From Methanospirillum hungatei (lineage in GTDB: Archaea > Halobacteriota > Methanomicrobia > Methanomicrobiales > Methanospirillaceae), in assembly GCF_020216685.1 (NCBI RefSeq), contig NZ_JAIWNS010000120.1, positions 1-16,900 of the forward strand: 16,900 nt of DNA, in the 5' to 3' direction. Position 1 is the stretch's first letter. Each line of letters begins with the position of its first letter. The translations under genes and the position numbers were made by a program. The notes beneath the pieces were generated by a model, which made no database searches, was not told where the DNA came from, and worked only from the letters and a program-made list of their open reading frames with translations. Shown here one piece after another: positions 1 through 16,076 of the stretch.

Positions 1-12
1 GGGTTTGTCTGA

Positions 13-159
13 AGATACCTCATACCCATCGGATGCGTTCGTGATCGTATATACAATTCAGATGTACAACCGCGAACGGATATTGAATGGAACGTTGCCC
101 TAAAAACCGGGAGAATCACACCAGAGGATCTTTTTGCAATAAACTTTACAAACTTGTAA
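13..159 (+). pseudogene. Possible 3' end of an upstream gene or gene remnant
   Basis: The reading frame beginning after a TGA at 10-12 runs to a TAA at 157-159. Its last 25 codons look protein-like (it ends ...ITPEDLFAINFTNL). No start codon of ATG, GTG or TTG type is visible in this frame after the TGA, so it is either the tail of a gene interrupted by that stop or a frameshifted remnant. A second frame, 2-103, is also open from the left edge and could instead be the true tail of an upstream gene. I do not recognise either peptide. The end of this frame overlaps the operator-like array in front of the next gene. Confidence 0.25.
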
Positions 160-178
160 GATAACTACATATTTGTAA
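146..178 (+). promoter_or_regulatory. Operator-like array in front of the HTH/peptidase gene
   Basis: TTACAA (146-151) and TTGTAA (154-159) form a perfect 6-bp inverted repeat with a 2-bp spacer. A third half-site, TTGTAA, lies at 173-178, 19 bp downstream. The array ends 16 bp before the start codon at 195, where the transcription start would be expected. XRE regulators commonly bind such dyads in their own promoters, so autoregulation by the downstream HTH protein is a reasonable inference. A GAGGGAG ribosome site follows at 184-190. Confidence 0.45.
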
Positions 179-194
179 AGTATGAGGGAGCCGT

Positions 195-1223: not shown

Positions 1224-1720
1224 GCGGAGAGATCCTCCATCTCCTTGATTCAAGTGTCTTATTTACTTTACAAGACGGAGGTCTGGTATCATCTCTCTTG
1301 GATCTGCATATTTCTTTGGGGACCATGGATCTGATTCTGGCAGAATGGAAGAGTGTTCTCCCCAATCATTTGATTTCTGCGGGTCTGCAAGTAAAACCTC
1401 TGACAGGTCCACAACTTGCGGAATTATTTCACTTGGCACCAACATATAAGCGAATCAGCCCGGCTGATCTCTCTTTGTATGTGTATGCCCTTCATCATCC
1501 GGATTGTATGATTATTACCGGTGATAGAAGGTTACGCAGCCTGTGTGCTGACCATAACATACCTGTTCACGGGGTGCTCTGGCTTATGGACATGATGGAT
1601 GAGAGAGGAGTGGTTTCAGATTCTTATCTTGCTGATGCCCTCGAAGAGATGATCACGAAAGGGAATTTCCTTCCAGAAGGAGATTGTGATGAGAGACTTA
1701 TGAGATGGAGAGAGCCATAA
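1220..1720 (+). CDS. PIN-domain protein (putative toxin ribonuclease)
   Basis: This 166-residue protein looks like a PIN-fold nuclease. An N-terminal LLDSS strand carries an acidic residue at D10. A central PADLSLYVYA segment supplies D83, and IITGDRRLRSLC supplies D102 followed by the basic stretch usual in this fold. PIN toxins are Mg-dependent RNases acting on tRNA, rRNA or mRNA. I place the start at ATG 1220, which overlaps the stop of the HTH/peptidase gene as ATGA; a TTG six bases upstream is in frame but less likely. The tight coupling to an XRE-ImmA protein suggests a toxin-antitoxin-like pair with the peptidase protein as control element. The length is normal for a single-domain PIN protein, and no other domain is seen. 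Target and activity are unknown. Confidence 0.82.
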   Translation: MSGEILHLLDSSVLFTLQDGGLVSSLLDLHISLGTMDLILAEWKSVLPNHLISAGLQVKPLTGPQLAELFHLAPTYKRISPADLSLYVYALHHPDCMIITGDRRLRSLCADHNIPVHGVLWLMDMMDERGVVSDSYLADALEEMITKGNFLPEGDCDERLMRWREP

Positions 1721-1798
1721 GAATGTACGAGAGATTATTGAAACAAAAATTTAAGGTCTTGCAGCAAAAACCGAAACCGCGAAATTATGTTTAAAACT

Positions 1799-1814
1799 AA
1801 GAATATTCATTCTT
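1799..1814 (+). terminator. Weak hairpin after the PIN gene
   Basis: AAGAAT and ATTCTT form a 6-bp stem with a 4-base loop about 80 bp after the PIN stop codon, in an A/T-rich stretch. It may help end the two-gene transcript, but the stem is short and made mostly of A-T pairs. Confidence 0.2.
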
Positions 1815-1943
1815 TAAATTAGGTACAGATCTTAGAGAGCCCCTCGCTCCCATCAATCAGAAGAACGAGTTCCATCACTGTAGTGTTCACAATAAGGCCT
1901 AAATTTTTCACGGTGTTACGGTGTGAACGATTATTACGATACA

Positions 1944-2495
1944 TCATTCATGATCCGTTACATGAGTGAGAATGAGAGGAGTTTTATAGGCTCCTTCCTT
2001 TTTAGGAATCGAGGAAACCTTCTTCAGACGAATTGTCACACCAGGTCCGAGAAGATTGGTAAACCGTTCTAAAAGTGCATCTGAGTCAGGGATTACGTCA
2101 AAGTATGAGGGGAATGAATCAGGGACGATGATTATCTCAAGTTCGTCCAAAGAGTGCTGGACAACCTGATACTGACCCACACCTCTTGTCTCGTCCATGA
2201 TGACATCGATGAGATACGGATCTATCCGGGTCATATCACGTCGAAACAGAGACTGCATCTTTCTTCCATGAACTGCCTGTATCACGAGGCCATAGGCATC
2301 CGGGTCAGGAGAAAAAGATGCCAGATCACCAAGCCCGCTGTACCTGATCAGGGGAGTTACAGTATTGTGAAAGGTGGTAACAACAACAGACCCGGTCTCA
2401 GAAGGCCCAACCGGATTCCCTGCGTCGTTGAGGATTTCAACAACCACATCCCAGAAGAAAACCCGGTACCCATCGCCGTACCGTATTTCCGAAGT
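1944..2495 (-). pseudogene. C-terminal fragment of an AMP-forming CoA ligase (phenylacetate-CoA ligase-like)
   Basis: The frame read leftward from 2495 encodes about 183 residues. It begins with a YGDGYRVFFWDVVVEIL segment, then has ETGSVVVTTFHNTVTPLIRY and the adenylate-forming hinge region (GRKMQSLFRRD), and ends with a typical C-terminal lid domain. This matches the last third of PaaK/coenzyme F390 synthetase-like ligases. The N-terminal two thirds, including the AMP-binding core, is missing: a TGA at 2496-2498 precedes the fragment. The overlapping frame further upstream (to about 2647) encodes a hydrophobic stretch ending in IELRKYG, suggesting a frameshift or fusion there. The only in-frame start (GTG 2447) has no ribosome site. 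I read this as a decayed remnant, not a working gene. Confidence 0.7.
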
Positions 2496-3398
2496 TCAAT
2501 AACACCGAGAAGGATCGAGACCACTATTGATATGATAATGGCATGTGAAACGGCAGTTTTTCTCCTGGAGGCTGTGCATGAATCTAGGGGATCGTGTGAT
2601 ACTGTTCCTCCCAGTGATTCACGCTCCCGAAAATCAGCTTCTCTCATATTGATATTCTCATCAAAGCCATAATTGGGTAGAGTATTCGTAGAATAAATCC
2701 ACTTATCTCATGTTATTTCTTATGATAAAAAGAGACATGTCCTTTGGAAAGGGCTGGCACTATCACTATTACGATATTTTTCAGAGAGATCCCCTTTCCT
2801 CCGCCATATCCCTACTGAGGTACCAGGCGACCGACCCTTTCTCAAATATTAGTTCTTTTTTATAATTAATTGAATGAACGATTTATTTATTTAATAATAT
2901 ATTATTATACGATGAGGTTAATTCCCATGTTGTATTTACATCAGACTGCACATATGCCACCCTATTTCTCAAAATTTCACCAAGACCACTTATTTCATCC
3001 CCTAATTATCCTGATAATAGCAGACCAATAATGAATTCTATAGATTGAGTATATAGAGGGTTCATAATTACTGCATAAGATACTATGGTTAGGATGGCCT
3101 TATTGAGAATCGACTTTCATATGAATTATATGAGGTGAGTATAGTCGATAAAATTGAAATTTAAGGCCCATATTCCATTTTTAAACTCTCATATGATAGA
3201 ACTGGGACCCTACCTCATTTTCAGTGAGTACCGGTATGAAAAAACTCTTTTGACCGACCAGATCCTATTCATTGATCTCGTCACCAAAATATTCTTATCG
3301 CTATTAAATTCCGACTCTGCCTTGATCCTTTACCAGATCTGAAAACTTACACCTCATAGGACAAGGCATGTCATGACACCTTCATGTTTATCAATATG
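2496..3398. other. About 0.9 kb without a convincing gene
   Basis: This A/T-rich stretch lies between the ligase remnant and the end of the exporter operon. It contains a hydrophobic reading frame on the minus strand (up to about 2707) that seems to be part of the same decayed locus. A 42-codon frame at 2737-2865 (plus, starting MSFGKGWHYHYYD) has no good ribosome site, and I do not recognise it. There is a perfect 16-bp A/T palindrome at 2892-2907. The left copy of the flanking repeat lies at about 3022-3270. A TGTCATGACA palindrome at 3369-3378, close to the end of the ABC gene, could contribute to termination on the minus strand. Nothing else is supported. Confidence 0.5.
3022..3270 (+). 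repeat. Left copy of a diverged ~250-bp direct repeat flanking the peptide cluster
   Basis: This segment aligns by eye with 12795-13043 in the same orientation. Shared blocks in order are AGACCAATAATGAA (3022-3035), TATTGAGAATCG (3101-3112), TTCATATG followed by an ATTATAT block, an exact 22-base block (3145-3166) and CATTTTCAG, ending near the GATCTGGTC region. The blocks are separated by diverged sequence with small indels. In the right copy the last part is the 3' end of a ywbE-type gene; here that reading frame is not preserved. It is either a dispersed intergenic repeat or a relic of a duplication of the insertion site. Confidence 0.65.
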
Positions 3399-6257
3399 TC
3401 ATAATAATTGATGCCGTGCAAGTTCAGCAAATATCCCTCCCTTATCTAATAACTCCTGATATGTTCCTTTTTCAACAATTTTTCCTTTATCAAGAACATA
3501 GATGCTATCGGCATGAATAATTGTTGATAATCGATGGGCAATTACTACTCTTGTCAGATGTAGTTTTTCAAGACTCTTCATGACGATCATCTGGCTATTA
3601 TTATCAAGAGCACTCGTTGCCTCATCCAGGTAGAGAATTTGAGGTTTTTTAGCAAGGGCTCGTGCAATGAGTATCCTTTGTTTCTGTCCTCCGGATATAT
3701 TTGCGGATCTCTCACTGATGTACGTATCCATCTGCATGGGCATCTCTCTGATATCCGTATCTACCCCGACATCTTCCGCTAATTTCCATGCCTCTTCCAG
3801 AGAGATTTTCCTTGGGCCTGAAATGTTCTGAAAAATACTTCCTGGCATGAGTTGCCCATCCTGAAGTACAACTCCGATCTGTCTTCGCACCTTTCGAATG
3901 CTCAATTTTGAAAGTAATTTTCCATTATAGATAACCTCCCCGGAGTCTGGTTTCTCAAATCCGAGAAGAATACGGAGCAATGTAGATTTTCCACTTCCTG
4001 ATGTTCCAACAATTGCCACAAATTCTCCAGGTTGAATTTTTATTGTTACATCATCCAAAACGAGAGGAGCATCAGATTCATATCGATATGATACATGCCT
4101 CATTTCAACAGACCCGGTAAGTATCCCTGGATCTTCCTTCCCTTCATCGGTTTCTGGAGGGGTTTTCAAAATAGGACTTACAAATTCCATCATTGGCTTT
4201 ATATTCCAAAGAGCGATGCATGAACTTCCAAGGCTTACAAATGAGGTCGAGAATGAACCTAAAGCTGAGTAAAATGCTAAAAACCATCCCTGATCACGAT
4301 CGGGCTGTACTACTGAAAGTTGTATCCCGGCAAGGTAAAATACAAGAATAGTAAGAAGTCCTGGCCAGAGTATGGTCAGTATCTTACTATACACATCATA
4401 TGTCCCAATTTTTAATCGTAATGCAATCTGCTTTTTCAGATCTCTCTCCCACAGTACAAACGCCCTGTTTTGAGCACCATAACTGGAAATACTTATGAGT
4501 CCGGATAAAATCTGAAACGTCTTTCCGGAAAGGTGGCCTTGTAAAAAGATGAGTTCCTTTCTTTTCAAAACACTGAGATACCCAATAAAAATAGTGAGCA
4601 TGAAAACCCCTATGACAAGCATAATTGCATATCCAGCAATATCAGGATATATTTGATACATAATTATGACATTAAAGAGAGAGAAGACACCCCCTAATAC
4701 CATACTTACAGTAACTGCAGATAACACCATCCTGATATCATCAATAACACCCACCCTGCTTGTCAGGTTTCCAGCATTATATCTTCTGAAGAAACCGGGT
4801 GAGAGTTTAAGGATCCTATCCCATATTGCAGCTTCGAAAAGACTTCCGATTCGTCCATCAATTCTAATATTGGCAATCTCACGACCGAATTGAAAGAATA
4901 ATGACGTAAAGATACTCATAAAAACGATAAATATTATTGTTTCAACGATTGAAATATTCTGAAAAGGAATTCCAATGCTAAATATAAGTCCTGTCGCTAA
5001 TGGAATAGAAGTACCCAAAATGCCTAACAACAATCCAAAAACAATCAGATTGAGAATATCCCGCTTCCATAATAATGACAGGATAAAATGGATAATATCA
5101 TATAATGAGAGTGATCTGTCAGGAAATGTCGGATAGACCATAATTCCTGAAGAATTGAAATGTATTTTTTTTATTGTATGATGATTGAACACCCGTCCTT
5201 GATCATCATACAATCGATATTTCCCGGGTTTTTCAGGAATTGCAGCATATAAATTATTATCATCAGATACGATGAGCGGTCCGTTATCGTGAGTATACCA
5301 TGATTCAGATAAGGTGACTCTTCGGATACGAACACCGCACTGATCTGCGAGGTCAGAGACATATTCATAGAGATCCTGATCTTTTTCATTTTTCTTAAAA
5401 AAATCATTAGATTTCTCTATTTTGGTCTCAATTCCCAAATTTTTTAAGATAATGGAAAAAATATTGAAATTCTTCTCTTCCCATTCAAGGGAATCATATT
5501 TGTTCTTTTGAATCTGATTATTCAGTGCTTCCTCCTGTTTGTACCACATTTCCAGGCGTTTTTTCTCCTCATACACATAATCATTCCAGAGTGCTAATGC
5601 TCGTGAATATAGCCATGCACTTAAATTTGTATGAAATAGTTTTATTGAAAAATCCGCGGGTATTTTATCCCCTTTCGTAATTCTGAGTGAACCATCTGAT
5701 TGGGTTTCTAGTACTGTATGCTCTGTTATAATAAACCAGCCCAATTCAGCCTGAAAGAGCATATCAGATCGCATATCTTTCAGGATACCTTCTTTTATAA
5801 GGCAAAATGCAAATTTATCCTGAACGAGATTACAATGAATCGTAACCCCAGAGGAAAATGCGGTATCCCCATACTCTATCTCATAAAGATCTTCTTTTGA
5901 GAACTCCCTTTGTATATAGGAGGGGATATTCTTTTGAGCATAGGTATACCATGCAACCCATAAAGAGCAGATTTCCATCTCATTTTTTACCGATGCTATC
6001 TCTATCTCTTCAATAATTGAGGCCGTTTGAGAGATACCGATCAGACATATTGTTTCAGGTTCCCACCCAAAGATCGGTTGTCCTTTATCTGCAACAATAC
6101 CATGCAGTCTTCTGCCAACAACGCCATTGACATACTCTGCAATATGAAGGATGAGGGTGCCTTCTATCAGACGATAACACACATCTCTTTTCAAGAATAT
6201 GATCTCTTCACCTTGTTTTAACAGATATTGAGAGGGGGATGGAGGAGTGCCTGGCAT
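3399..6257 (-). CDS. NHLM-type peptide ABC transporter, ATPase/permease without peptidase
   Basis: This 952-residue protein has three parts. An N-terminal cytoplasmic region (about 1-390) includes a segment around 300-380 seen in the second transporter of NHLM-type peptide export systems. A six-helix ABC exporter membrane domain follows (about 400-690). The C-terminal ATPase carries Walker A GTSGSGKST (751-759), signature ISGGQKQR (about 853-860), Walker B ILYLDEA and the H-loop IAHRLST. No Cys-His peptidase site is present. It probably pairs with the C39 transporter encoded just upstream to export the modified peptide. The ATG at 6257 is preceded by a strong GGAGGTGA site formed by the last codons (SLEGGE) of the previous gene, leaving only two bases between the genes. 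It is the last gene of the operon. Whether it forms a heterodimer with its neighbour is inferred. Confidence 0.88.
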   Translation of the reverse strand: MPGTPPSPSQYLLKQGEEIIFLKRDVCYRLIEGTLILHIAEYVNGVVGRRLHGIVADKGQPIFGWEPETICLIGISQTASIIEEIEIASVKNEMEICSLWVAWYTYAQKNIPSYIQREFSKEDLYEIEYGDTAFSSGVTIHCNLVQDKFAFCLIKEGILKDMRSDMLFQAELGWFIITEHTVLETQSDGSLRITKGDKIPADFSIKLFHTNLSAWLYSRALALWNDYVYEEKKRLEMWYKQEEALNNQIQKNKYDSLEWEEKNFNIFSIILKNLGIETKIEKSNDFFKKNEKDQDLYEYVSDLADQCGVRIRRVTLSESWYTHDNGPLIVSDDNNLYAAIPEKPGKYRLYDDQGRVFNHHTIKKIHFNSSGIMVYPTFPDRSLSLYDIIHFILSLLWKRDILNLIVFGLLLGILGTSIPLATGLIFSIGIPFQNISIVETIIFIVFMSIFTSLFFQFGREIANIRIDGRIGSLFEAAIWDRILKLSPGFFRRYNAGNLTSRVGVIDDIRMVLSAVTVSMVLGGVFSLFNVIIMYQIYPDIAGYAIMLVIGVFMLTIFIGYLSVLKRKELIFLQGHLSGKTFQILSGLISISSYGAQNRAFVLWERDLKKQIALRLKIGTYDVYSKILTILWPGLLTILVFYLAGIQLSVVQPDRDQGWFLAFYSALGSFSTSFVSLGSSCIALWNIKPMMEFVSPILKTPPETDEGKEDPGILTGSVEMRHVSYRYESDAPLVLDDVTIKIQPGEFVAIVGTSGSGKSTLLRILLGFEKPDSGEVIYNGKLLSKLSIRKVRRQIGVVLQDGQLMPGSIFQNISGPRKISLEEAWKLAEDVGVDTDIREMPMQMDTYISERSANISGGQKQRILIARALAKKPQILYLDEATSALDNNSQMIVMKSLEKLHLTRVVIAHRLSTIIHADSIYVLDKGKIVEKGTYQELLDKGGIFAELARHQLL

Positions 6258-6259
6258 AC

Positions 6260-8449
6260 TTATTCACCTCCTTCTAATGAACTATCATCAGCAGATATTA
6301 ATCGATAATAACTCCCTTTTAATTCCATTAACTGTTCATGGGTTCCCTGTTCCACGATATATCCTTTATCAAGCACAATAATCCAGTCACAATCTCTGAC
6401 GGTGCTTAATCTGTGGGCGATAATAAGACATGAACAACCCCTTTGCCTGATATGAGACTCAATGTTTTTTTCCGTTACCGGATCGAGAGCACTGGTTGCC
6501 TCATCCATGATAAGGAGTGAAGGATTTTTGGCCAAAGCACGTGCTATTTCCAGACGTTGTCTCTGACCCCCGCTCACATTTCTCCCTCCATCCTCTATGT
6601 TATGTTCATATCCTCCTTCAAGACCTGATATGAACTCATCAATCTCTGCATCTTTTGCTGCCTGAATAATTGAAGATTGACTCAAAGTCTTATCCCATAA
6701 TGTAATATTATGAAGAACCGTATCCTCGAAGATAAAAATTTCCTGACTGACGTATGCAATTGATACATGTCTCACATGGTGTGGTATTTCATTCAGATCT
6801 CTTCCATCAATGGTAATCCGCCCTTCCCAGGGTGTATAAAAACCTGCAGCTAATTTTGCAATGGTGCTTTTTCCACACCCTGATGGCCCTACAAATGCAA
6901 TGCGTTTCCCAGGCATACAATGAAAAGAGATATTATGAAGAATTGGTGGTTCACGTGGATTATATCCAAAAGTTACCTCCTCAAACCGGATGTCCCCTAC
7001 CATTTTTGAAAAATTTCCATCTGAAGCAAATTCTGATAGAGATACTTCTCTTTTTTGTTCTTTTGCAAAATACTGTTCAACATCAATTAATCGTTGAAGA
7101 CTGCCATCTAGATCTGAGAGATCTCCTCCAACGTTCATGAGTCTTTGTGTTGGCTGAAGAAAGTTTACCAAGAGGGTCTGGTACGCAAAGAAAAATCCAA
7201 TACTTATTGACCCTTGTAAGATGAGATAACTCCCTGCTGCAAGAAGTATGGTGGTTCCAATTCCTGATATGAATGATGGGACAATATTCATCAATGATGA
7301 TGCAATCTTTACATCCCGCATGGTATTGATATACCCTGCATGATATCCGGACCATTTTTCAAAAAATTCGGACTCCTGACCACTCGATTTCAGCGATTCA
7401 ATCATCTGAATACCTGAAAACGCAACACCAGTTAACCTTCCCCGAGCAAGTATAATTTTTCTGCTTAATTCTACTCGTTTATCAGATATATACCTGAAAA
7501 ACAGAAGGTTTCCCAGGCTTACAAAACAGGCAATAAGAGTAAGGAGAGCATTCAATGAAAAAAGGAGTCCAAGATAGACAAACGAGATGATGATATCTAA
7601 AACTGCAGGAGCCCCTTTTGAACAGATAATGCTTGCAATATGTTCATTTATAGATACCCGTGATGAGATCTCTCCAGTATATCGCTGATCAAAAAAACTT
7701 ATTGGAAGCGATAAAATTTTATGAAAAAAGGTATGAGACAATTTGTATGAGAGGTTTGCTTCCCATCTGATCACACAGATCTCACGAATCCAATTGATAA
7801 ATACCTGCAGAAGAACAAAAAAGGAGATATACTGAAGAAGAGGGAGTAATAAACCCTGTCGATCCGCTAATACAATTTGATCCAAAAACACCTGATTTGC
7901 TATTGGAAGAGCAATACCAGGTATCAGCATTGCAATACCGGCAATAAGGAGAAATAAGAGCGGGAGAATTTCGGGTTTCATTTTCGGTAGAAGCATATTC
8001 CAGAATGTGGTCCTGACACCTCCTGATTTGAAATCAGGTCCTGGATGAATGGAAAGGACAATTCCTGTAAAGGAATTATCAAATTCTTCAAAGGATATCG
8101 TTCTCCTCCCGCTTGCAGGATCGTTCACATACACCTTCCCTCTCCCAAAACCTTCCAATACCATGAAATGCGAAAAATTCCAATGAATAATTACCGGCAT
8201 TTTGATATCTTTCAGATTTTCTGGTTCTACCCGATACCCTGCAGCATCCATTCCATATTTTCGTGCAGCCTGTATGACATTAATAGCCCGGCTTCCATCC
8301 CTTGATATACCACAATCTTCTCTTATCTTCTCCAATGGAAGAAAAAGGCCATAGTAACCAAGAATAATGGCTAAAGAAACAGCACCACATTCTGCGGCTT
8401 CCATTTGTAAAACAAAAGGAGTTTTAACCTTTTTTGATAGGAATGCCAT
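6260..8449 (-). CDS. C39 peptidase-containing ABC exporter for double-glycine leader peptides
   Basis: The 729-residue protein starts with a C39 peptidase domain. Catalytic Cys21 lies in AAECGAVSLA, His94 in FSHFMVLEG and Asp110 in VNDPASG. An exporter membrane domain (about 155-440) and an ABC ATPase follow, with Walker A GPSGCGKST (521-529), signature VSGGQRQR (about 625-632), Walker B LLIMDEA and the H-loop IIAHRLS. Such transporters cut the leader after Gly-Gly in the cytoplasm and export the released core. Both precursor peptides here end their leaders in VSGG, so they are the obvious substrates. The gene follows the HlyD-like gene by 17 bp, with AGAGGT just before ATG 8449, and is followed two bases later by the second ABC gene. 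All catalytic and ATPase motifs look intact. Confidence 0.93.
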   Translation of the reverse strand: MAFLSKKVKTPFVLQMEAAECGAVSLAIILGYYGLFLPLEKIREDCGISRDGSRAINVIQAARKYGMDAAGYRVEPENLKDIKMPVIIHWNFSHFMVLEGFGRGKVYVNDPASGRRTISFEEFDNSFTGIVLSIHPGPDFKSGGVRTTFWNMLLPKMKPEILPLLFLLIAGIAMLIPGIALPIANQVFLDQIVLADRQGLLLPLLQYISFFVLLQVFINWIREICVIRWEANLSYKLSHTFFHKILSLPISFFDQRYTGEISSRVSINEHIASIICSKGAPAVLDIIISFVYLGLLFSLNALLTLIACFVSLGNLLFFRYISDKRVELSRKIILARGRLTGVAFSGIQMIESLKSSGQESEFFEKWSGYHAGYINTMRDVKIASSLMNIVPSFISGIGTTILLAAGSYLILQGSISIGFFFAYQTLLVNFLQPTQRLMNVGGDLSDLDGSLQRLIDVEQYFAKEQKREVSLSEFASDGNFSKMVGDIRFEEVTFGYNPREPPILHNISFHCMPGKRIAFVGPSGCGKSTIAKLAAGFYTPWEGRITIDGRDLNEIPHHVRHVSIAYVSQEIFIFEDTVLHNITLWDKTLSQSSIIQAAKDAEIDEFISGLEGGYEHNIEDGGRNVSGGQRQRLEIARALAKNPSLLIMDEATSALDPVTEKNIESHIRQRGCSCLIIAHRLSTVRDCDWIIVLDKGYIVEQGTHEQLMELKGSYYRLISADDSSLEGGE

Positions 8450-8466
8450 ATTACCTCTTCTTTAGG

Positions 8467-9078
8467 TTAAAAAAAATTCTCCTGAACACTCTTTTGATTC
8501 AGAATGATCCTTCCATGACAAGGAGTTGCTGGTTGAACTGATACATTTCCAGGATCATCTCCTACAATGATAAAAGAATTAGGATCATCTTCCTGTTTGT
8601 CTAATAAAACTTCAACAATATAGGGAGGTCCGTCAATATATCGTAAGAGATAATCAGCGAGTTCAGAGTTATTATTCAGCATATACACAACATCGTTTCT
8701 GGAAGCCGGCCATTGACCTATCGTTGTGACCGTCCCGCGTATGTAGGCATATTCACCTTTATCTAATGTCAATGGCGAGATCTGAACCTTTAATCCTGGT
8801 TTTATCTTTGGACCCTGTATGTATTGTACAAAGAGAAGAACATGAAGATCTGATAGCGGTGTATCATTTTCCGAATTATTTGTGATGAAGATACCATTTG
8901 CATCGATAAAATCATAGATAGTAAGATGAATAAAACTCAAATACAGGCCAATTACAATGATGAGAAAACCAGTAAGTATAATCCAGTAAGGAAGTGAGGG
9001 TTGTACTACCAGTTGATCCAGGTTATCTGTATTTGAGTGCCTGACCAGAGCTTTTTTTCGAAATAAATTTTCTTTCAT
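8467..9078 (-). CDS. Very short HlyD-like adaptor of the peptide exporter
   Basis: The 203-residue protein has a short cytoplasmic N-terminus (LFRKKALVRHS...LDQLVV), one membrane helix (about 31-50), then an extracytoplasmic segment containing IKPGLKVQISPLTL and a C-terminal beta-type region. These N-terminal and C-terminal blocks resemble the NHLM HlyD-type secretion protein. The long coiled-coil and lipoyl hairpin that normally sit between them (family members are usually well over 300 residues) are absent. An archaeon with one membrane would not need a periplasm-spanning hairpin, so this may be an adapted form and not a damaged gene; that is inference. It starts at ATG 9078, 94 bp after the second radical SAM gene, with no strong ribosome site, so a separate promoter cannot be excluded. 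It is followed after 17 bp by the C39 transporter. Confidence 0.78.
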   Translation of the reverse strand: MKENLFRKKALVRHSNTDNLDQLVVQPSLPYWIILTGFLIIVIGLYLSFIHLTIYDFIDANGIFITNNSENDTPLSDLHVLLFVQYIQGPKIKPGLKVQISPLTLDKGEYAYIRGTVTTIGQWPASRNDVVYMLNNNSELADYLLRYIDGPPYIVEVLLDKQEDDPNSFIIVGDDPGNVSVQPATPCHGRIILNQKSVQENFF

Positions 9079-9172
9079 ATGGGTTTAACATACCATATAC
9101 CTTCACCTGTTCTGTAATCTTCTCATGATATTTGTATATTCCTGACAATTTCGTATTTTTGATTCATATGCT

Positions 9173-10345
9173 TCAGCTCGGATTTTTCAGATTCGTGGAT
9201 GGGAACGAACGCAATCTAGTCTTTGGAAATATTCCCATATTTTCTGCTTCTCTGCATTCCCATTGAGGAGAAACCAGAATCCCGTTTTCCAGGTAATTAT
9301 GCGCCACACATCCGGTTCGGCATTGTTTTGCATGAATACAAGAGCCACAGATACCGGGGTATTCATACACGTTCTCAAGATCTTTTCTGAGTGTTTGAAT
9401 GATAGGATTATTCATCCAAATATCTTTAATACTATCTATTCCAAGTTTCCCATACACAAGTTCCGGGATCGTTTGGCCTATTCCGCATAGAGCAATCTCT
9501 CCAGTGCCAAGAATTCCAAGAACATTTAAAACACCGCAATCACCGACATATCCCTTTCGAACCCGTAGATCTGAAAGAGAGGTCAAAGCCAGTGGTGTTA
9601 GAAAAATCAGGCTTATGGTAGATGATGGACGTAATGTTTTGCTAATATATTCTGATAATTCCAGAATATCAGTAAGATTTAGCGTTTCACCTCGTTCATT
9701 CATCTGTATTCCTCTTCCTGATTTAATAAACGGATTGAATTTCACAGATGCTGCACCGTGCTCTGTTGCAAGTTTAACTAAATCAGCCATCTGATCCCGA
9801 TTATTCTTATGCACTGCCATGATTACCTGACAATTTGTATATCCAGCCTCAACAAGTGCATCAAGTCCGTCTAATGCCTTCTGAAAGGCTCCTTTTTTTC
9901 CACGAAATTGATCATGTATATCAGGTACTGGTGAATCAAGGCTGATCGTAATAAAATCTACCTTATCTCCTTCTTTCATGAATTGTGCCAGTTCAGGTGT
10001 GATGAGGGTCCCATTAGTCTCCATACTCAAACGCAGACCTTCCGAATGGAGATATGACACAACATCCTGAAACTGTGGATGAAGCATAGGTTCTCCCCCG
10101 GTAAGCTTTGCACCACACAGGCCCAGTTCTTTTGCTTCCTGAACTGCTTTTTTTAACAGATTCAAAGGGATATATGCTCCATGAACCTGATTATCGGATG
10201 CATAGCTGGGATCTATCCAGCAATGTTTACATCTGAGATTGCATCCTGAAGTGAGGTACAGAAAAAAAAAAAAAAGGGGTGGAACTCCTTCAGGCAGATT
10301 GATCTCTTTTTGCTCTGATATCATCTGGTTTTCACATGAGGTCAT
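9173..10345 (-). CDS. scmF: Radical SAM/SPASM peptide-modifying protein, ScmF type
   Basis: The 390-residue protein has the radical SAM CxxxCxxC motif in LTSGCNLRCKHCWIDP (Cys35, 39, 42), the SAM-binding KLTGGEP stretch (about 81-86), and a C-terminal SPASM region with CGVLNVLG, ALCGIG, ICGSCIHAKQCRTGC and WECREAE, which would hold auxiliary iron-sulfur clusters. The LYLTSGCNLRCKHCWIDP and AKLTGGEPMLHP strings match what I recall of ScmF of the SynChlorMet cassette. I choose ATG 10345: GGAGAGG (10355-10361) sits nine bases upstream, and the start overlaps the end of the scmE-type gene by 14 bp. A TTG at 10363 is in frame but would contain that ribosome site. Codons 25-29 include a run of 14 T in the coding strand. 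The likely job is cross-linking or other modification of the Cys/Gly/Ala core peptides; the reaction is not known. Confidence 0.88.
   Translation of the reverse strand: MTSCENQMISEQKEINLPEGVPPLFFFFLYLTSGCNLRCKHCWIDPSYASDNQVHGAYIPLNLLKKAVQEAKELGLCGAKLTGGEPMLHPQFQDVVSYLHSEGLRLSMETNGTLITPELAQFMKEGDKVDFITISLDSPVPDIHDQFRGKKGAFQKALDGLDALVEAGYTNCQVIMAVHKNNRDQMADLVKLATEHGAASVKFNPFIKSGRGIQMNERGETLNLTDILELSEYISKTLRPSSTISLIFLTPLALTSLSDLRVRKGYVGDCGVLNVLGILGTGEIALCGIGQTIPELVYGKLGIDSIKDIWMNNPIIQTLRKDLENVYEYPGICGSCIHAKQCRTGCVAHNYLENGILVSPQWECREAENMGIFPKTRLRSFPSTNLKNPS
10262..10275. repeat. 14-base A/T homopolymer inside the scmF-type gene
   Basis: Fourteen consecutive A on the plus strand (T in the coding strand), followed by GGGG, encode four phenylalanines just before the radical SAM cluster motif. 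A change of one or two bases would shift the frame before any catalytic residue is made. Such a run is prone to replication or transcription slippage. Confidence 0.95.
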
Positions 10346-11477
10346 GATACTCTGCCTCTCCAATTATATATCGGTAACAGGTGTATGGGTCAATTGCATT
10401 CAGTTTATTCTTTATGGCCATGACTAATGCCGGGCAGCCTCCAGCACAATAACCGGTGTACGCACAGTCAGAACAGGTCGGAAGAGATGAGAGTGGAATT
10501 TCTCTTCGGTATCGTAATGCGTTTATTGCAGGTGAATGGAGCCATGCCTCCTTTATGGGATGCATTCCGGCTACACCCATAACCAGAGTTGGAAGCATAT
10601 TACAGGGGACCATAGTACCATCATGAAGAATCGCCATTTTTGAGAAGACTCCTCCACATGAGCATAATGTGCCTCTTCCTGGAATACCGGTCTTTCCTTC
10701 CCTGCGATGCTGGTCAATCTCATCAACCATGTCTGCCATAGCTAATGGACCAGCCTGAGCACTGATGACATTCCCATATTGCTCATTTAATTCACGTAAT
10801 ATTTTCATGGCTTTCTTCCGCTGGTCAGGTGATAATAAGATATTATCTCCATGGCATCGTGCAGTCCCCATAGGTTCGGCTTCATTTGTTGAGAATCCAG
10901 GTAGTCCTATATCACAAATGAGAAGTCTGGCGATATTCTCCAGATCATCAATATTATGCCGGTTTAACGTTACCCGTACCGTTGCTGGAAGTCCATGTTG
11001 AACAATGAGACGAAGTGCATGGATTGCGCGGTCAAAACTCTGTGGAGGTCTTGATAAATCATGAATGCCGGCATGTGAACCATCAATAGAGATTTGAATA
11101 TAATCAAGTCGAATTCTCCGTTTACCAATGAGTAACTGCTGTATTGTCTCTTCCGTAATCAGTGTACCATTTGAAAGGATACTGTATCGCATTCGATTCT
11201 CGATAACCGAATCAATAATGTCAAAGATGTCCTTTCTGGTAAAAACCTCACCGCCGGAGAGTATGACACGCTGGACAGCAAGACTTCCTAGCTCATAGAG
11301 GATTATTTTCCATTTTTCAAAAGGCAAATCCTTTTTTTGAATCATGCTGTCAGCATAAAAGCAATACGCACATGAAAGATTACATCTCCCGGTTATTTCG
11401 AGATCGACCGAATACGGCGTTTTGGATGTTCCAATTGGCGGGATAGTAAGGTCCCAGTATGGCTTATGAGTATTCAT
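10332..11477 (-). CDS. scmE: Radical SAM/SPASM peptide-modifying protein, ScmE type
   Basis: The 381-residue protein carries CxxxCxxC in ITGRCNLSCAYC (Cys32, 36, 39), a SAM-binding VILSGGEVF stretch in which the usual GGEP proline is valine, and NRMRYSILSNGTLIT. Its C-terminal SPASM domain includes LCSCGGVFSKMAILHDGT, MVPCNM, CSDCAYTGYCAGGCPAL and a final TCYRY cysteine. The SVDLEITGRCNL, ENRMRYSILSNGTLIT and DIGLPGFSTN strings fit the ScmE family of the SynChlorMet cassette as I remember it. ATG 11477 overlaps the stop of the PqqD-like gene (ATGA), and the 3' end overlaps the next radical SAM gene. It is expected to act on the leader-bound precursor with the PqqD-like protein as guide. Whether the two radical SAM enzymes act on different residues or different precursors cannot be read from the sequence. 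Confidence 0.88.
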   Translation of the reverse strand: MNTHKPYWDLTIPPIGTSKTPYSVDLEITGRCNLSCAYCFYADSMIQKKDLPFEKWKIILYELGSLAVQRVILSGGEVFTRKDIFDIIDSVIENRMRYSILSNGTLITEETIQQLLIGKRRIRLDYIQISIDGSHAGIHDLSRPPQSFDRAIHALRLIVQHGLPATVRVTLNRHNIDDLENIARLLICDIGLPGFSTNEAEPMGTARCHGDNILLSPDQRKKAMKILRELNEQYGNVISAQAGPLAMADMVDEIDQHRREGKTGIPGRGTLCSCGGVFSKMAILHDGTMVPCNMLPTLVMGVAGMHPIKEAWLHSPAINALRYRREIPLSSLPTCSDCAYTGYCAGGCPALVMAIKNKLNAIDPYTCYRYIIGEAEYHDLM

Positions 11478-11764
11478 TCATCAAACCTGCACAGATATTC
11501 ATCACCAAGTCCGATGATAAATTCATGGATATCCTGTAAGACTTCTTCTTTATGTGGAAGACCTGTACATCGACTTTTCAGATGCTCATAGATCTCCTCT
11601 TCCGTGTGGGGGTTTTCAAGATATTGCCAAATCAAGATGCCAATTTTATTTATGATAGTGCTGTTATCAGTATCCGGATTGTACAATAGTGCGTCGTTTT
11701 CTGTCTCAATTCTTAATGAAACAACCGGTTGAGCCTGGTATCGTAAGATGGTATCAGAACACAT
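11474..11764 (-). CDS. scmD: PqqD-like RiPP recognition element, ScmD type
   Basis: This 96-residue protein has the PqqD/RRE winged-helix pattern: a beta segment (RIETENDALLYNPDTDN), then TIINKIGILIWQYLENPHTEEEIYEHL, then a C-terminal helix ending in FIIGLGDEYL. PqqD-like proteins bind the leader of the precursor and deliver it to the radical SAM enzyme. ATG 11764 is preceded by GAGGAG, and its stop overlaps the start of the scmE-type gene. It follows precursor 1 by about 100 bp containing a 12-bp hairpin. By position and fold it is the ScmD counterpart of the SynChlorMet cassette; the symbol rests on fold and neighbourhood more than on sequence identity. Confidence 0.82.
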   Translation of the reverse strand: MCSDTILRYQAQPVVSLRIETENDALLYNPDTDNSTIINKIGILIWQYLENPHTEEEIYEHLKSRCTGLPHKEEVLQDIHEFIIGLGDEYLCRFDE

Positions 11765-11793
11765 AACTCCTCTTATGAAAAAAATTTTTTTCT

Positions 11794-11833
11794 GGTTTTG
11801 TCAAAATGATAAACCTACATCTTTGACAAAACC
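11794..11833 (-). terminator. 12-bp perfect hairpin between precursor 1 and the modification genes
   Basis: GGTTTTGTCAAA (11794-11805) and TTTGACAAAACC (11822-11833) form a perfect 12-bp stem with a 16-base loop. In the minus-strand direction the stem is followed by AG, seven A and then seven T (11791 down to 11778). It lies between the precursor stop and the ribosome site of the PqqD-like gene. It fits a partial terminator or a processing/stability hairpin that would leave precursor mRNA in excess over the enzyme mRNA. Confidence 0.6.
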
Positions 11834-11863
11834 CTCTTTCCTTAATGTTAGAACCAAAAATGT

Positions 11864-12133
11864 TTAATCAGTCCCGCCTGCATGACAATTTGTTGCGACG
11901 GCGCCCCCTGCGGGTTTACATCCAGTTGATGCTGCCCCACCGGTTCTACAGGATGTTGCAGCAGCACCACCAGCAGTACAGGTTCCTATCGCGGCTGCCC
12001 CCACACCAAGACATTCAAGTCGGTTTTCATCATCACTTCCTTCTCCTCCGGATACATGCTCAAGATCCTTGTCATCGAGTTTTGACCCAGTAGGTTTTTC
12101 ATACGGCTCCTTGCCTGACTCTGTGTCGGACAT
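11864..12133 (-). CDS. RiPP precursor peptide 1 (five-Cys Gly/Ala repeat core)
   Basis: The 89-residue peptide has a 30-residue leader ending DLEHVSGG, a classic double-glycine site with hydrophobic residues at -4 and -7. The core follows from Glu31. Cys lie at 41, 52, 62, 72 and 83 (spacing 11, 10, 10, 11), each followed by a Gly/Ala repeat: CLGVGAAAIGT, CTAGGAAATS, CRTGGAASTG, CKPAGGAVATN, CHAGGTD. The leader closely matches that of the divergent precursor (about 20 of the first 33 residues identical). The gene heads the minus-strand operon of PqqD-like, radical SAM and C39 exporter genes. There is no ribosome site, but a TTTTAAAT box is centred about 28 bp before ATG 12133, as expected for a leaderless archaeal mRNA. 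Thioether cross-links from Cys to the Gly/Ala residues are a plausible modification, but this is inference. I cannot name a known product. Confidence 0.88.
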   Translation of the reverse strand: MSDTESGKEPYEKPTGSKLDDKDLEHVSGGEGSDDENRLECLGVGAAAIGTCTAGGAAATSCRTGGAASTGCKPAGGAVATNCHAGGTD

Positions 12134-12152
12134 AAATTTTTTTTAGGACAAT

Positions 12153-12171
12153 CGATAATTTAAAAGTATCG
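12153..12171 (-). promoter_or_regulatory. TATA box of precursor 1 inside a CGATA/TATCG dyad
   Basis: On the minus strand CTTTTAAATTA forms a TATA-like box centred near 12161, about 28 bp before the start codon. It is bracketed by CGATA and TATCG arms (12153-12157 and 12167-12171) with nine bases between them, so a repressor bound there would block TATA-binding protein. Confidence 0.45.
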
Positions 12172-12380
12172 TGGCTGTTCTATGAATGATGCTTATCAAT
12201 AATAAATGATTAATTGAGCGAGAATTTTATTTTTCATAATTAATTCGTACAATAAGGTAAGAATTTTGATCCAATCATTTTCCAGGAATATAATTAAATT
12301 TTGGATGCCTAGAATCCATTATTTCAGGTAATTTTAGATTGAATATATATTTCTCTAGAGATTGCCTTAATGTTCGACAT

Positions 12381-12394
12381 ATAGAAATATCTAT
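12381..12394 (+). promoter_or_regulatory. Possible promoter of precursor 2 with an ATAGA/TCTAT dyad
   Basis: ATAGA-AATA-TCTAT forms a small inverted repeat around an AAATAT box, centred about 32 bp before ATG 12420. No ribosome site precedes that ATG, so a leaderless transcript is likely here too. A 10-bp palindrome TCTCTAGAGA lies further upstream at 12352-12361 and could be another regulator site. The region is A/T-rich, so both are tentative. Confidence 0.3.
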
Positions 12395-12419
12395 TAGTTC
12401 ATATTTCATAATTACATTC

Positions 12420-12629
12420 ATGGCCGAAGAAAAAGGTGAGCATGAGTCCTATGAGAAACCCACGGTTTCTAAAATAGATGACAAAGAACTTGATAATGTC
12501 TCTGGTGGAGAAGGATCTGAAAATCTAATAGGACAATGCATCTATGCCGGAGCAGCTGCAGTTACTTCATGCAAAACTGGGGGTGCAGCTGCACATGCAT
12601 GCAAGACGGGTGGTGCTGCAGTTAATTGA
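12420..12629 (+). CDS. RiPP precursor peptide 2 (three-Cys Gly/Ala repeat core)
   Basis: The 69-residue peptide is homologous to precursor 1. The leader again is exactly 30 residues and ends ELDNVSGG, sharing the YEKPT, SK, DDK and VSGGEGS blocks. The core has Cys at 40, 51 and 61 with repeats CIYAGAAAVTS, CKTGGAAAHA and CKTGGAAVN. I place the start at ATG 12420, since it aligns with the start of precursor 1; the frame stays open further upstream (to about 12339), but that part is unlike precursor 1. The gene is divergent from the operon and has no modification or export genes of its own, so it presumably uses the same enzymes and exporter. The shorter three-repeat core suggests gain or loss of repeat units after duplication. 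A hairpin with a T run follows the gene. Confidence 0.87.
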   Translation: MAEEKGEHESYEKPTVSKIDDKELDNVSGGEGSENLIGQCIYAGAAAVTSCKTGGAAAHACKTGGAAVN

Positions 12630-12992
12630 TGAAATAAAGATGGAATAATAATATTACATCTTTTACGAAAGTTTCCGGATATGGAAGACAAATATCCGAA
12701 CTAACACATTATTTTTTATTAAATTGTGTGCTGTTTTTAGTTCCTGATTCCTTTTGATGGATGTAAAAAACCCATGTAATCCAGATCCTATGGGAGACCA
12801 ATAATGAACCCCACAGAGTGAGTAGATATAGGATTCAGAGTTACGTCATAAGAGATATAAGGAAGGAGGACACTATTGAGAATCGGTCTTCATATGGATT
12901 ATATATGATATTAATTATCGATAAAATTGAAATTTAAGGTTAGTATACTGTTTTCAGACACTATGTGATAAAACGCGGACCCGGACCCATTT
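12630..12992. other. Non-coding stretch between precursor 2 and the ywbE remnant
   Basis: After the hairpin and T run nothing gene-like is visible on either strand. From 12795 onward the sequence is the right copy of the flanking repeat. No promoter or RNA gene is clearly supported. Confidence 0.5.
12676..12717 (+). terminator. Hairpin and T run after precursor 2
   Basis: CGGATAT (12676-12682) and ATATCCG (12692-12698) form a 7-bp stem with a 9-base loop, extendable by GTT/AAC across a 2-base bulge. A run of six T follows at 12712-12717. The hairpin starts 46 bp after the stop codon and is a reasonable end for this one-gene transcript. Confidence 0.5.
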
Positions 12993-13043
12993 TCAGGGCT
13001 TATCCGGATGAATAAAACAAACCCTGCCGATCTGACCAGAAGT
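12795..13043 (+). repeat. Right copy of the diverged ~250-bp direct repeat
   Basis: This copy aligns by eye with 3022-3270 in the same orientation. Shared blocks include AGACCAATAATGAA (12795-12808), TATTGAGAATCG, TTCATATG followed by ATTATAT, and an exact 22-base block at 12918-12939. Its right-hand 50 bp code for the last residues of the ywbE-type gene on the minus strand, so the repeat includes that gene's 3' end and about 200 bp beyond it. The two copies bracket the whole peptide cluster. Confidence 0.65.
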
Positions 13044-13279
13044 GGGCCTGACTTTTATCCCATGGGGATGAACTGATGAACTGATGAACCAGTAAGAATC
13101 TCCCTGACGATTCCCCGAGTTTTCTTACCAGTTCGCTGATCCTGTTTCAAAATAATATCTACAGAGAGACCGGGTTTGATGGATTGTCGCTTTGTTCCAT
13201 CCCGGTCATTCGTACTTTTTATATCGCTCACCTGTAACACCTGATGTATCGTGTGGAGATCATATTCAGAAATCTCCAT
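12993..13279 (-). pseudogene. ywbE: YwbE-family protein gene, frameshifted by an 8-bp tandem repeat
   Basis: From ATG 13279 the frame encodes the YwbE/DUF2196 signature SIKPGLSVDIILKQDQRTGK followed by KTRGIVREILTGSSVH. It then leaves the family pattern and stops at 13055, giving 74 residues. Removing one 8-bp copy of the GATGAACT repeat at 13067-13090 restores the expected ending HPHGIKVRPTSGQIGRV, with a natural stop at 12993-12995 and 92 residues in all. So the gene is intact except for one extra repeat unit. YwbE is a small conserved protein of unknown function. The N-terminal 30 or so residues before the signature are longer than in many family members. The state could be a true null allele, a switchable one or a sequencing error. 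Confidence 0.8.
13067..13090. repeat. Three-copy 8-bp tandem repeat in ywbE
   Basis: GATGAACT, GATGAACT and GATGAACC lie in tandem. Two copies keep the ywbE frame open and three break it, so slippage at this site would switch the C-terminal half of the protein on or off. Confidence 0.85.
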
Positions 13280-13399
13280 TCTCTTCGATGTCCATAAACA
13301 AAAAATCTTCTACAAAACCATCACCTGGACTCAGCATATCCTTGTATACCTTACAGGATAAGTACTCACTAATCCGACCGGATTCCTATAGGAGGCACT

Positions 13400-13995
13400 A
13401 TGACACAAACTAGTGAAACGGGATCACTGATCGTCTCTGAAATTACTGCAAATCCTGCACCCCTCGGGCTTCTGGGTTTTGGTATGACAACTGTCCTGCT
13501 TAATCTGCATAATGCCGGGTTATTCACCCTGGGCTCCATGATTCTGGCGATGGGATTATGCTATGGAGGGACTGCCCAGATTATTGCAGGACTTATGGAA
13601 TGGAAGAAGAATAATACCTTTGGCATGACTGCTTTTCTCTCCTACGGGCTTTTCTGGATATCCCTCGTGATGCTGCTCCTGTTACCGGCAGCAGATCTGA
13701 TAGACGGAACCGGAGGCAATATCGCCATGGCTTCATACCTCATCATGTGGGGCATCTTCACAGGAATTATGTTATCGGGACATTACGACTAAATAAGGCA
13801 TTACAATTTGTCTTTGGATCCCTGACTCTTCTATTCTTCCTCCTCGCACTTGGGGATATCACCGGGATTGAGATCATTACACAGATTGCAGGGATAGAAG
13901 GAATTATCTGCGGGTTTTCAGCAATCTACACCGGACTAGCCCAGGTTCTGAATGAAGTGTACGGAAAGGTTATCTGGCCGGTATGGCCCGTTTAA
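13400..13995 (+). pseudogene. Acetate uptake transporter (GPR1/FUN34/YaaH family), single-base frameshift
   Basis: The first frame (ATG 13400, stop 13790-13792) encodes the family signature [12 protein letters not shown] and about four membrane helices. The next part, in the +1-shifted frame, continues with [27 protein letters not shown] and ends at 13995. Adding one A near 13780 (GGACATTA to GGAACATTA) joins them into a 198-residue, six-helix protein of normal family length. Members move acetate or succinate with protons, and some in bacteria carry ammonium or other small acids. AGGAGG at 13390-13395 gives a good ribosome site. A methanogen could use it for acetate assimilation. As written the gene is broken, either a real inactivating deletion or an assembly error. 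It lies next to another frameshifted gene (ywbE). Confidence 0.85.
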
Positions 13996-14110
13996 CTTAA
14001 ATTTTCATTCCCGATGAAATCTGTAATTTTATCAGATATTCTAGATTATTAATGATTACCGGATTTACTTCTCCATACCGGCTATGTACACTCACTTTTC
14101 ATTAATTGCG

Positions 14111-14119
14111 TATAATTTT
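14111..14119 (+). promoter_or_regulatory. TATA-like box of the SLC13 transporter gene
   Basis: TATAATTTT would place the transcription start near 14140, giving an mRNA leader of about 80 bases before the chosen start at 14221. A GGGAGG at 14146-14151 is too far from either ATG to be an ordinary ribosome site. Confidence 0.3.
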
Positions 14120-14220
14120 GACAGTATCTTTTCCCGGTTTTATTGGGGAGGGATCTCGTTACTACAATGAATACCTATTTAAAGAGCTATCTACAATGTG
14201 AGACTATATCAGGAAATGAA

Positions 14221-16005: not shown

Positions 16006-16076
16006 GATCAGATGAAAAATAGATACCAACAATCAAGTTTTCAAGAGTTAGGATTATCTTCAATTTTCGATAAAAA

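Follow-up and report, generated by a model that had tools for sequence, protein, structure and literature searches.

A Methanospirillum hungatei gene cluster that probably joins Scm-type peptide maturation to C39/NHLM-type export

Introduction

The closest described relatives of the locus reported here are the SynChlorMet cassette (models TIGR04248-TIGR04252) and the NHLM/NHLP export system (TIGR03794, TIGR03796, and TIGR03797). The cassette shares with our locus the gene order ScmD-E-F, two radical SAM/SPASM proteins, a PqqD-like protein, and an adjacent precursor with a Y-x-x-P leader and C-x2-G units. In most other Scm loci, unlike in ours, the export half combines the kinase-like ScmC with an S26-type peptidase and with an ABC protein that lacks a C39 domain. 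Double-glycine leaders follow the consensus hydrophobic-x3-E/D-hydrophobic-x2-hydrophobic-x-G-G. Exported RiPPs of methanogens are, to our knowledge, hardly characterised.

We analysed a stretch of 16,900 nucleotides, referred to as the window, from Methanospirillum hungatei (GCF_020216685.1, contig NZ_JAIWNS010000120.1, positions 1 to 16,900), in which the cluster occupies 3399-12629. A preliminary description had proposed a RiPP-type cluster in a methanogen; the analysis supports this, the host being a probable methanogen. We consider it likely that the window encodes an Scm-type RiPP pathway whose processing and export module has been exchanged for a C39/NHLM module, with a leader to match.

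Organisation of the cluster

Two homologous Cys-rich precursors (A1 and A2) are accompanied by a PqqD-like protein and a pair of radical SAM/SPASM proteins; the cluster further encodes a C39 peptidase-ABC exporter (ABC1), a second ABC protein (ABC2), and a short adaptor resembling HlyD (Table 1). Every gene that the preliminary description had claimed was found in its place. The minus-strand genes are separated by 99, -4, -14, 94, 17, and 2 bases, spacings that are compatible with one operon. Precursor A2 diverges from this operon, and the spacings and orientation agree with the layout originally described, one operon plus a divergent precursor. The region between A1 and A2 presumably contains the promoters of both. 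The most likely start of A2 is the ATG at 12420, as opposed to the TTG at 12339 in the list of open reading frames; for the ScmF-like protein we used the ATG at 10345, where the list uses the TTG at 10363.

A direct repeat flanks the cluster, and a genome search found only two copies in the source genome. The right flank, with SatP- and SLC13-like genes, matches a region of genome G003; the left-flank genes had no match within the 18-kb stretch of G003 that matches the right flank. The cluster was seen in one genome only, on a single contig of 16.9 kb from an assembly of 300 contigs.

Table 1. Features of the window, with profile scores and cut-offs in bits
Feature	Position	Strand	Remarks
Direct repeat, left copy, flanking the cluster	3017..3244	+	72% identity to 12790-13016
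NHLM-type ABC2 permease/ATPase without C39, 952 aa	3399..6257	-	TIGR03797 718, just above cut-off 709.4
NHLM-type ABC1 (C39 peptidase, permease, ATPase), 729 aa	6260..8449	-	TIGR03796 909.3, above cut-off 853.3
Short HlyD-like adaptor, 203 aa	8467..9078	-	TIGR03794 66, below cut-off 156.2, C-terminal part of profile only
ScmF-like radical SAM/SPASM maturase	9173..10345	-	TIGR04251 349.7, below cut-off 400; PF04055 above cut-off; SPASM cysteines conserved
ScmE-like radical SAM/SPASM maturase, 381 aa	10332..11477	-	TIGR04250 364.7, below cut-off 400; PF04055 and PF13186 above cut-off
ScmD-like PqqD-family protein	11474..11764	-	PF05402 28.6, above cut-off 23.4; TIGR04248 50.9, below cut-off 100
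Precursor A1, 89 aa	11864..12133	-	Leader to Gly30, core of 59 aa with 5 Cys
Intergenic region between divergent precursors A1 and A2	12134..12419		Position only
Precursor A2, 69 aa	12420..12629	+	Leader to Gly30, core of 39 aa with 3 Cys
Direct repeat, right copy, flanking the cluster	12790..13016	+	Repeat comparison; single copy in G003

Precursor peptides

The two precursors are 55% identical over residues 4-70, and their leaders close with V-S-G-G, the second Gly being residue 30 in both, which bears out the homology and leader ends first reported. The A2 leader contains Y-E-K-P and ends in I-D-D-K-E-L-D-N-V-S-G-G, and that of A1 ends in L-D-D-K-D-L-E-H-V-S-G-G. Among 52 precursors compared, the full double-glycine pattern is present in both from the window and in none of the 50 others, eight of which have a GG pair without it. 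The pattern is not attributable to chance, since it occurs in only two of the 298 stop-to-stop frames (at least 30 codons) of the window, namely A1 and A2, and arises in 18 of 40,000 shuffled versions of the two sequences. Precursor A2 scores 15.7 bits with the NCBIfam model bacteriocin_sig, whose cut-off is 15.7. Neither precursor matched the Nif11 / nitrile-hydratase-like leader family in NCBIfam and Pfam profiles, and assignment to this Nif11/NHLP family was rejected on that ground.

A close leader was found only in the window when 392 genomes of the phylum were searched with A1 (3 further genomes matched weakly, the best with E 1.8e-4) and 232 of the order with A2 (2 further genomes matched weakly, the best with E 0.004); it is also absent from the 50 precursors of other Scm-type loci. 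Within the window cores, the spacing of Cys residues is 10 (three times) or 11 (three times), and Gly stands at +4 after 8/8 Cys. Between positions -4 and +10 around the core Cys, no reactive side chain besides Cys itself is conserved in every unit.

Maturation enzymes and the SynChlorMet models

The best family matches of the three maturases are ScmD, ScmE, and ScmF. Both radical SAM proteins carry CxxxCxxC and seven invariant cysteines in the SPASM region and can be regarded as complete, as had been claimed; the Pfam SPASM model itself matches the first (ScmE-like) only. Their profiles match the solved peptide maturases SkfB, PqqE, 5wgg, and 5v1q, in line with Foldseek, and we take the nearest solved relatives to include both C-C bond formers and thioether formers. 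The ScmE-like protein falls below the cut-offs of AlbA (80.5 bits; 850), StsB (87; 625), and PapB (63.3; 340), and SkfB is absent among its best 25 families listed. The ScmF-like protein is likewise below cut-off for AlbA (78.3), StsB (82.2), PapB (69.2), and SkfB (59.5; cut-off 300).

The SynChlorMet link drawn in the preliminary description holds insofar as the maturases resemble ScmD, ScmE, and ScmF; the curated models give no cassette. Plain membership was rejected because all three score below their cut-offs and neither ScmA nor ScmC was found. An S26 peptidase was not found in the window either, and the ScmC-S26 protein of locus L039, used as a query, had no match in the window's own genome. 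Locus L161, a complete control, has all five SynChlorMet models above cut-off (ScmE 721.5, ScmF 714.3, ScmD 162.5, and ScmA 64.6 bits among them). With ScmA (TIGR04252), A2 scores 9.8 bits, below the cut-off of 35, and A1 gives no match. Five precursors of other Scm loci gave one weak match (L164, 14.8) and four blanks, so the ScmA model appears to cover few Scm precursors.

Export and leader processing

The C39 domain of ABC1, about its first 145 residues, scores 120.8 bits with PF03412 and contains Q15, C21, H94, and D110, the presumed catalytic residues of this family. Residues 9-724 of ABC1 match 4ry2, a solved ABC-type bacteriocin transporter, over its whole length (352.3 bits). The adaptor has one predicted N-terminal membrane-length helix, its best match is the HlyD model of the NHLM/NHLP system, and its structural model (pLDDT 70.5) weakly matches membrane-fusion proteins. 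With ABC1 and ABC2 above the NHLM cut-offs and double-glycine leaders in 2/2 precursors, the earlier pairing of Gly-Gly leaders with a C39/NHLM exporter is sustained.

Comparison with other Scm-type loci

The comparison set consists of 42 other Scm-type loci drawn from 40 genomes, of which G008 and G615 contribute two apiece. From the best 80 of at least 298 relatives, 10 other loci with at least 40% identity were used; L053 was left out as the same record as L033, and loci L042, L203, L204, and L205 are either disrupted or incomplete. A precursor was recovered in 36/42 loci and was not found, by pattern, in L034, L040, L042, L060, L201, and L203. A repeat search showed that L037 carries 1-kb repeats; a tandem scan with a longest period of 500 found none there.

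In tblastn searches (E 1e-3), the C39, HlyD, and ABC2 N-terminal domains were found in 0/42 loci and an ABC ATPase in 28/42. The kinase-like ScmC is present in 34/42 and an S26-type peptidase in 30/42, neither being found in the window. A missing C39 domain means little at short or cut loci, since eight of the 42 are shorter than 9 kb and others are truncated close to one side. C39 processing from a distance is conceivable in the 14 of 24 Scm-bearing genomes searched that encode a C39 domain somewhere.

The leader motif Y-x-x-P is present in 51/52 precursors, a count that is partly circular as two of the pattern searches required Y-x-x-P and a third required either that motif or V/I-S/T-G-G. 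It occurs in 15/16 precursors from loci first read without requiring Y-x-x-P, a group in which the precursor at L032 11026 was placed by a later Y-x-x-P search. The two L160 precursors were chosen by eye from a list of open reading frames. In non-window cores, 53.6% of 252 Cys gaps are 10 or 11 (shuffle mean 7.8%, maximum 13.1%). Outside the window, 224 of 302 core Cys have Gly at +3 (shuffle mean 56, maximum 74), with most of these precursors coming from searches that required Cys-Gly patterns; in nine precursors found without the C-x2-G criterion (two Cys plus a share of small residues), the count is 36/46.

The core is not unique to the window, because regular Cys-x2-Gly units and a Y-x-x-P leader adjoin scmDEF-type genes in archaea and bacteria. 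The idea of a core confined to methanogens was rejected, as bacterial loci have the same units, and the preliminary view that the core could not be assigned does not stand. That description had also named the lack of a homologous precursor beside scmDEF genes in related genomes as a refuting outcome: this outcome did not occur, and the close A1/A2 leader was not found outside the window in the genomes searched or in the 50 other precursors.

Proposed pathway and alternatives

In the pathway that we propose, the precursors would be bound via the conserved Y-x-x-P motif of the leader, with the ScmD-like protein as the probable binding partner. The ScmE- and ScmF-like enzymes would then act on the regularly spaced C-x2(-3)-G units of the core, most likely introducing Cys-based thioether links, as core and enzyme relatives suggest. 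Judging from the exporter family and the leader, the C39 domain of ABC1 would cut after Gly30, and the modified cores would be exported by ABC1/ABC2 together with the short adaptor.

The weightiest competitor concerns chemistry: the same pathway might install C-C links, epimers, or dehydro residues, the Cys serving in disulfides or metal binding. We regard this as rather unlikely. PqqE, the 5v1q enzyme (SuiB), and WgkB-type enzymes are among the relatives of ScmE/F, and the conserved Gly/Ala beside each Cys could itself be the target; against this, Cys alone among reactive residues is retained throughout the units. An ordinary SynChlorMet cassette that merely adjoins an unrelated NHLM exporter is improbable. 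The maturases' best families, the unchanged D-E-F order, and 66% identity of the ScmE-like protein to that of L039, whose ScmC exceeds its cut-off, would suit such a cassette, but ScmA and ScmC were not found, curated cut-offs were missed, the genes form a single closely spaced run, and a leader suited to C39 occurs, among the 52 precursors, in the window only. Least probable is that A1 and A2 are unmodified class II type bacteriocins exported by C39, with the radical SAM genes acting on another substrate. Their cores are Gly/Ala-rich, the peptides are paired, and A2 scores 16.1 bits with bact_IIb_cerein (below the cut-off of 21.5). The PqqD-like and two radical SAM genes, however, lie directly behind A1, and the same type of leader and core adjoins scmDEF at loci without C39.

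If the exchanged-module reading holds, the cluster suggests that processing of the leader can be exchanged separately from modification of the core. Unlike Scm clusters of unknown processing, it has a C39 site predictable to the residue, and the mature A1 and A2 cores thus have definite calculated masses, which makes it a good entry point for learning ScmE/ScmF function. For the reduced and unmodified cores cut after Gly30, the calculated monoisotopic masses are 5338.340 Da (A1) and 3621.697 Da (A2); each cross-link would lower the mass by 2.016 Da, and one link per Cys by 10.08 and 6.05 Da. More tentatively, and with some doubt, Scm-type peptides may form a RiPP class of wide distribution whose C-x2-G repeats are modified one unit at a time by two radical SAM enzymes, giving a ladder of regularly spaced cross-links, the export half being detachable and here swapped (ScmC/S26/ABC for C39/NHLM) together with a change of leader.

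Relation to known systems

The locus differs from SynChlorMet in its sub-cut-off ScmD/E/F, its C39/NHLM export, and its double-glycine leader. Unlike the NHLM/NHLP system, it has an adaptor of about half length that scores below cut-off, precursors outside the Nif11/NHLP leader families, and an exporter joined to Scm-type maturases. The substrate of ABC1 would be a radical SAM modified peptide, unlike those of C39 exporters such as 4ry2. Three NHLM clusters of the same archaeal family (L146, L147, and L148) have an ABC1 55-60% identical to ours, and L146 and L148 share the short adaptor; L147 is too short for its enzymes to be judged, and L146 (YcaO) and L148 (another radical SAM) have different maturation enzymes without the ScmDEF set. 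Scm-type maturases, NHLM/C39 export, and C-x2-G cores each occur at other loci, and what sets this single case apart among the loci compared is their combination with a double-glycine leader.

Gene content and surroundings

The preliminary description of this contig proposed an archaeal RiPP cluster with two Cys-rich precursors, a PqqD-like protein, two radical SAM/SPASM maturases and a C39 exporter, and all its main points were borne out by the gene content and by NCBIfam and Pfam profile matches. Precursor A1, the ScmD-like (PqqD-like), ScmE-like and ScmF-like (radical SAM/SPASM) proteins, an HlyD-like adaptor, a C39 peptidase-permease-ATPase (ABC1), and a permease/ATPase without C39 (ABC2) follow in this order on the minus strand, with consecutive gaps of 99, -4, -14, 94, 17, and 2 bases. 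Precursor A2 is divergent from this run. The cluster is real and is read here as an Scm-type RiPP pathway whose processing and export half is of the C39/NHLM kind, with a leader to match. The whole window is one 16.9-kb contig of a genome in 300 contigs.

Two copies of the flanking direct repeat, and no others, were found in the window genome. A single copy is present in G003, a genome of the same genus, approximately 330 bases before the same SatP-like gene, and the repeats may mark the cluster's mode of arrival. Both matches to this gene lie in a single frame in G003; the window gene is either broken or an assembly slip.

Coordinates of features in the window and in comparison loci
Sequence	Position	Strand	Feature
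Window	195-1720		HTH/IrrE-type protein (PF01381, PF06114), then PIN-like protein (weak match, under cut-off)
Window	3017-3244 and 12790-13016		Direct repeats of ~225 bases, 72% identical, closely bracketing the cluster
Window	11864-12133	minus	Precursor A1
Window	12420-12629	plus	Precursor A2
Window	13400-13995		SatP-like gene split over two frames, each ~94% identical to G003
L037 (G008)	8773-12252		Three to four direct repeats, ~1,008-1,035 bases apart
L041	3649-5724		ScmE without ScmF, two PqqD-like frames, precursor with irregular Cys pattern
L146	6900-13014		Archaeal NHLM exporter with YcaO protein (PF02624, 162.9 bits)
L148	1074-13678		Archaeal NHLM exporter, small repeated frames (QTPEIVVLT-like start), radical SAM-like genes
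L160	5008-5130 and 8752-8961		Two short precursors, one Cys-x2-Gly each; ScmF without ScmE

Comparison loci

The comparison set comprised 42 other Scm-type loci from 40 genomes (by source 11, 10, 6, and 15, the 10 being from the best 80 of 298 relatives); 34 of these loci have a length of 9 kb or more. ScmF matches at E 1e-60 or better were obtained in 20 of the 232 genomes of the order, including the window, and the other 19 are all in the set; two further searches, with matches in 10 of 392 genomes (E 1e-50) and 8 of 301 genomes, were also fully taken in. The set includes incomplete loci, namely L034, whose ScmF is on another contig, and L042 and L203-L205, which are broken or partial. Genome G020 (locus L160) has ScmF and seemingly lacks ScmE (best match E 1.7e-21), and G009 (locus L041) has ScmE and seemingly lacks ScmF (no match at 1e-60).

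Precursor cores and leaders

Fifty-two precursors were read, two in the window and 50 from 36 of the 42 loci. The precursors outside the window have 302 core Cys, and 224 of them are followed by Gly at +3, against a mean of 56 and a maximum of 74 in shuffled sequences. Of their 252 Cys-Cys gaps, 53.6% measure 10 or 11, compared with 7.8% on average after shuffling. Both counts are partly selected by the precursor search patterns; nine precursors found without requiring C-x2-G have Gly at +3 in 36 of 46 Cys. Within the two window peptides, successive core Cys lie 10 apart in three cases and 11 apart in three others; Gly follows at +4 for 8/8 and at +3 for 5/8 of these Cys, and Ala at +6 for 7/8. 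The window core is thus the common Scm core in a form rich in Gly and Ala. Each repeat in L037 carries its own scmD together with scmE, of which the 5' portion or more is present, and some also contain a precursor frame; L038 (G004) has one extra unit of this kind. These repeats look like a precursor-multiplying array.

The leader pattern hydrophobic-x3-acidic-hydrophobic-x2-hydrophobic-x-Gly-Gly is present in both window precursors and in none of the 50 others, eight of which have a loose GG pair without the full pattern. G-x-G between Y-x-x-P and the first Cys occurs in 33 of these 50 (shuffle mean 11.3, maximum 23) and may be the usual processing end of Scm precursors, perhaps cut by the S26-type peptidase, for which the rule is a small residue at each of -3 and -1. 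The G-G of the window would then be a replacement for this end.

Export half

ABC1 and ABC2 both exceed the NHLM cut-offs, the latter by a narrow margin. The C39 domain, HlyD-like adaptor, and ABC2 N-terminal domain were found in none of the 42 other loci (eight of them below 9 kb), 28 of which have an ABC ATPase match. ScmC, which a weak NCBIfam match links to HPr kinase, is present in 34 and an S26-type peptidase in 30; neither was found in the window, and a ScmC-S26 query against its own genome gave no match, an empty result that is weak on its own.

NHLM ABC1 is over cut-off in 4 of the 108 genomes of the family, including the window. The other three loci are L146 with YcaO, L148 with another radical SAM-like gene, and the short L147. 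L146 also has a short frame resembling a precursor, whose leader ends in VAGG. In L148, frames that look PqqD-like and signal-peptidase-like were assigned by visual inspection, and tblastn also picked up the S26-like frame. In G020, the NHLM exporter (contig C14) and ScmF locus (C52) are on separate contigs, and the full double-glycine pattern is absent from both ScmF-side precursors. C39 domains occur somewhere in 14 of 24 Scm-bearing genomes, and within the Scm locus in the window only. The export-module swap is a single observed case.

The adaptor has 203 residues, its kin 203 (L146) and 207 (L148), and the NHLM HlyD profile 421 positions. Its structural model (pLDDT 70.5, three sequences) weakly matches membrane-fusion proteins (best E 1e-3, TM 0.40). 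An adaptor of about half the profile length would suit a cell that has no outer membrane.

Proposed pathway and chemistry

The analysis establishes gene content, gene order, protein families, leader pattern, and core regularity. In the proposed pathway, ScmD would bind the leader, ScmE and ScmF would modify the core, the C39 domain of ABC1 would cut after Gly30, and ABC1/ABC2 with the HlyD-like adaptor would export the modified cores. By profile, the relatives with solved structures are SkfB, PqqE, 5wgg (CteB), and 5v1q (SuiB), and the ScmF model (pLDDT 74.8) matches SuiB, SkfB, and the 5wgg/5why structures. The enzymes SkfB, PqqE, CteB, and SuiB make either thioether or C-C links. Chemistry is the most uncertain part of the model, and the sequences favor thioethers because Cys is the one constant reactive residue. 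L160 is a natural minimal case: it has only ScmF, and each of its two precursors has a single Cys, in a C-x2-G unit. L041 has only ScmE and an irregular Cys pattern. Together these two loci hint that ScmF may act at C-x2-G units.

Comparison with the SynChlorMet cassette

The NCBIfam top names for the window maturation proteins are ScmD, ScmE, and ScmF. L161 is a complete SynChlorMet cassette, over cut-off in all five models (ScmA 64.6, ScmC 525.3, ScmD 162.5, ScmE 721.5, and ScmF 714.3 bits), whereas the window ScmD, ScmE, and ScmF (50.9, 364.7, and 349.7 bits) fall short of the cut-offs of 100, 400, and 400. The near relative L039 is likewise below them (49.3, 371.6, and 349.1 bits), and its ScmC scores 175.8 bits, over the cut-off of 125. 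In the ScmE tree of 38 sequences, the window belongs to a set of eight (support 100/98) with six rows from its archaeal order and one from the order of an Anaerolineae genome (L214). L161 and most remaining rows fall into another set, of 22 (support 100/100). The window maturases thus belong to a second branch of the Scm type, distinct from the curated cassette. This cluster makes Scm-class chemistry testable; the Scm class itself is already named, and the variant here has a C39/NHLM half with a leader to fit.
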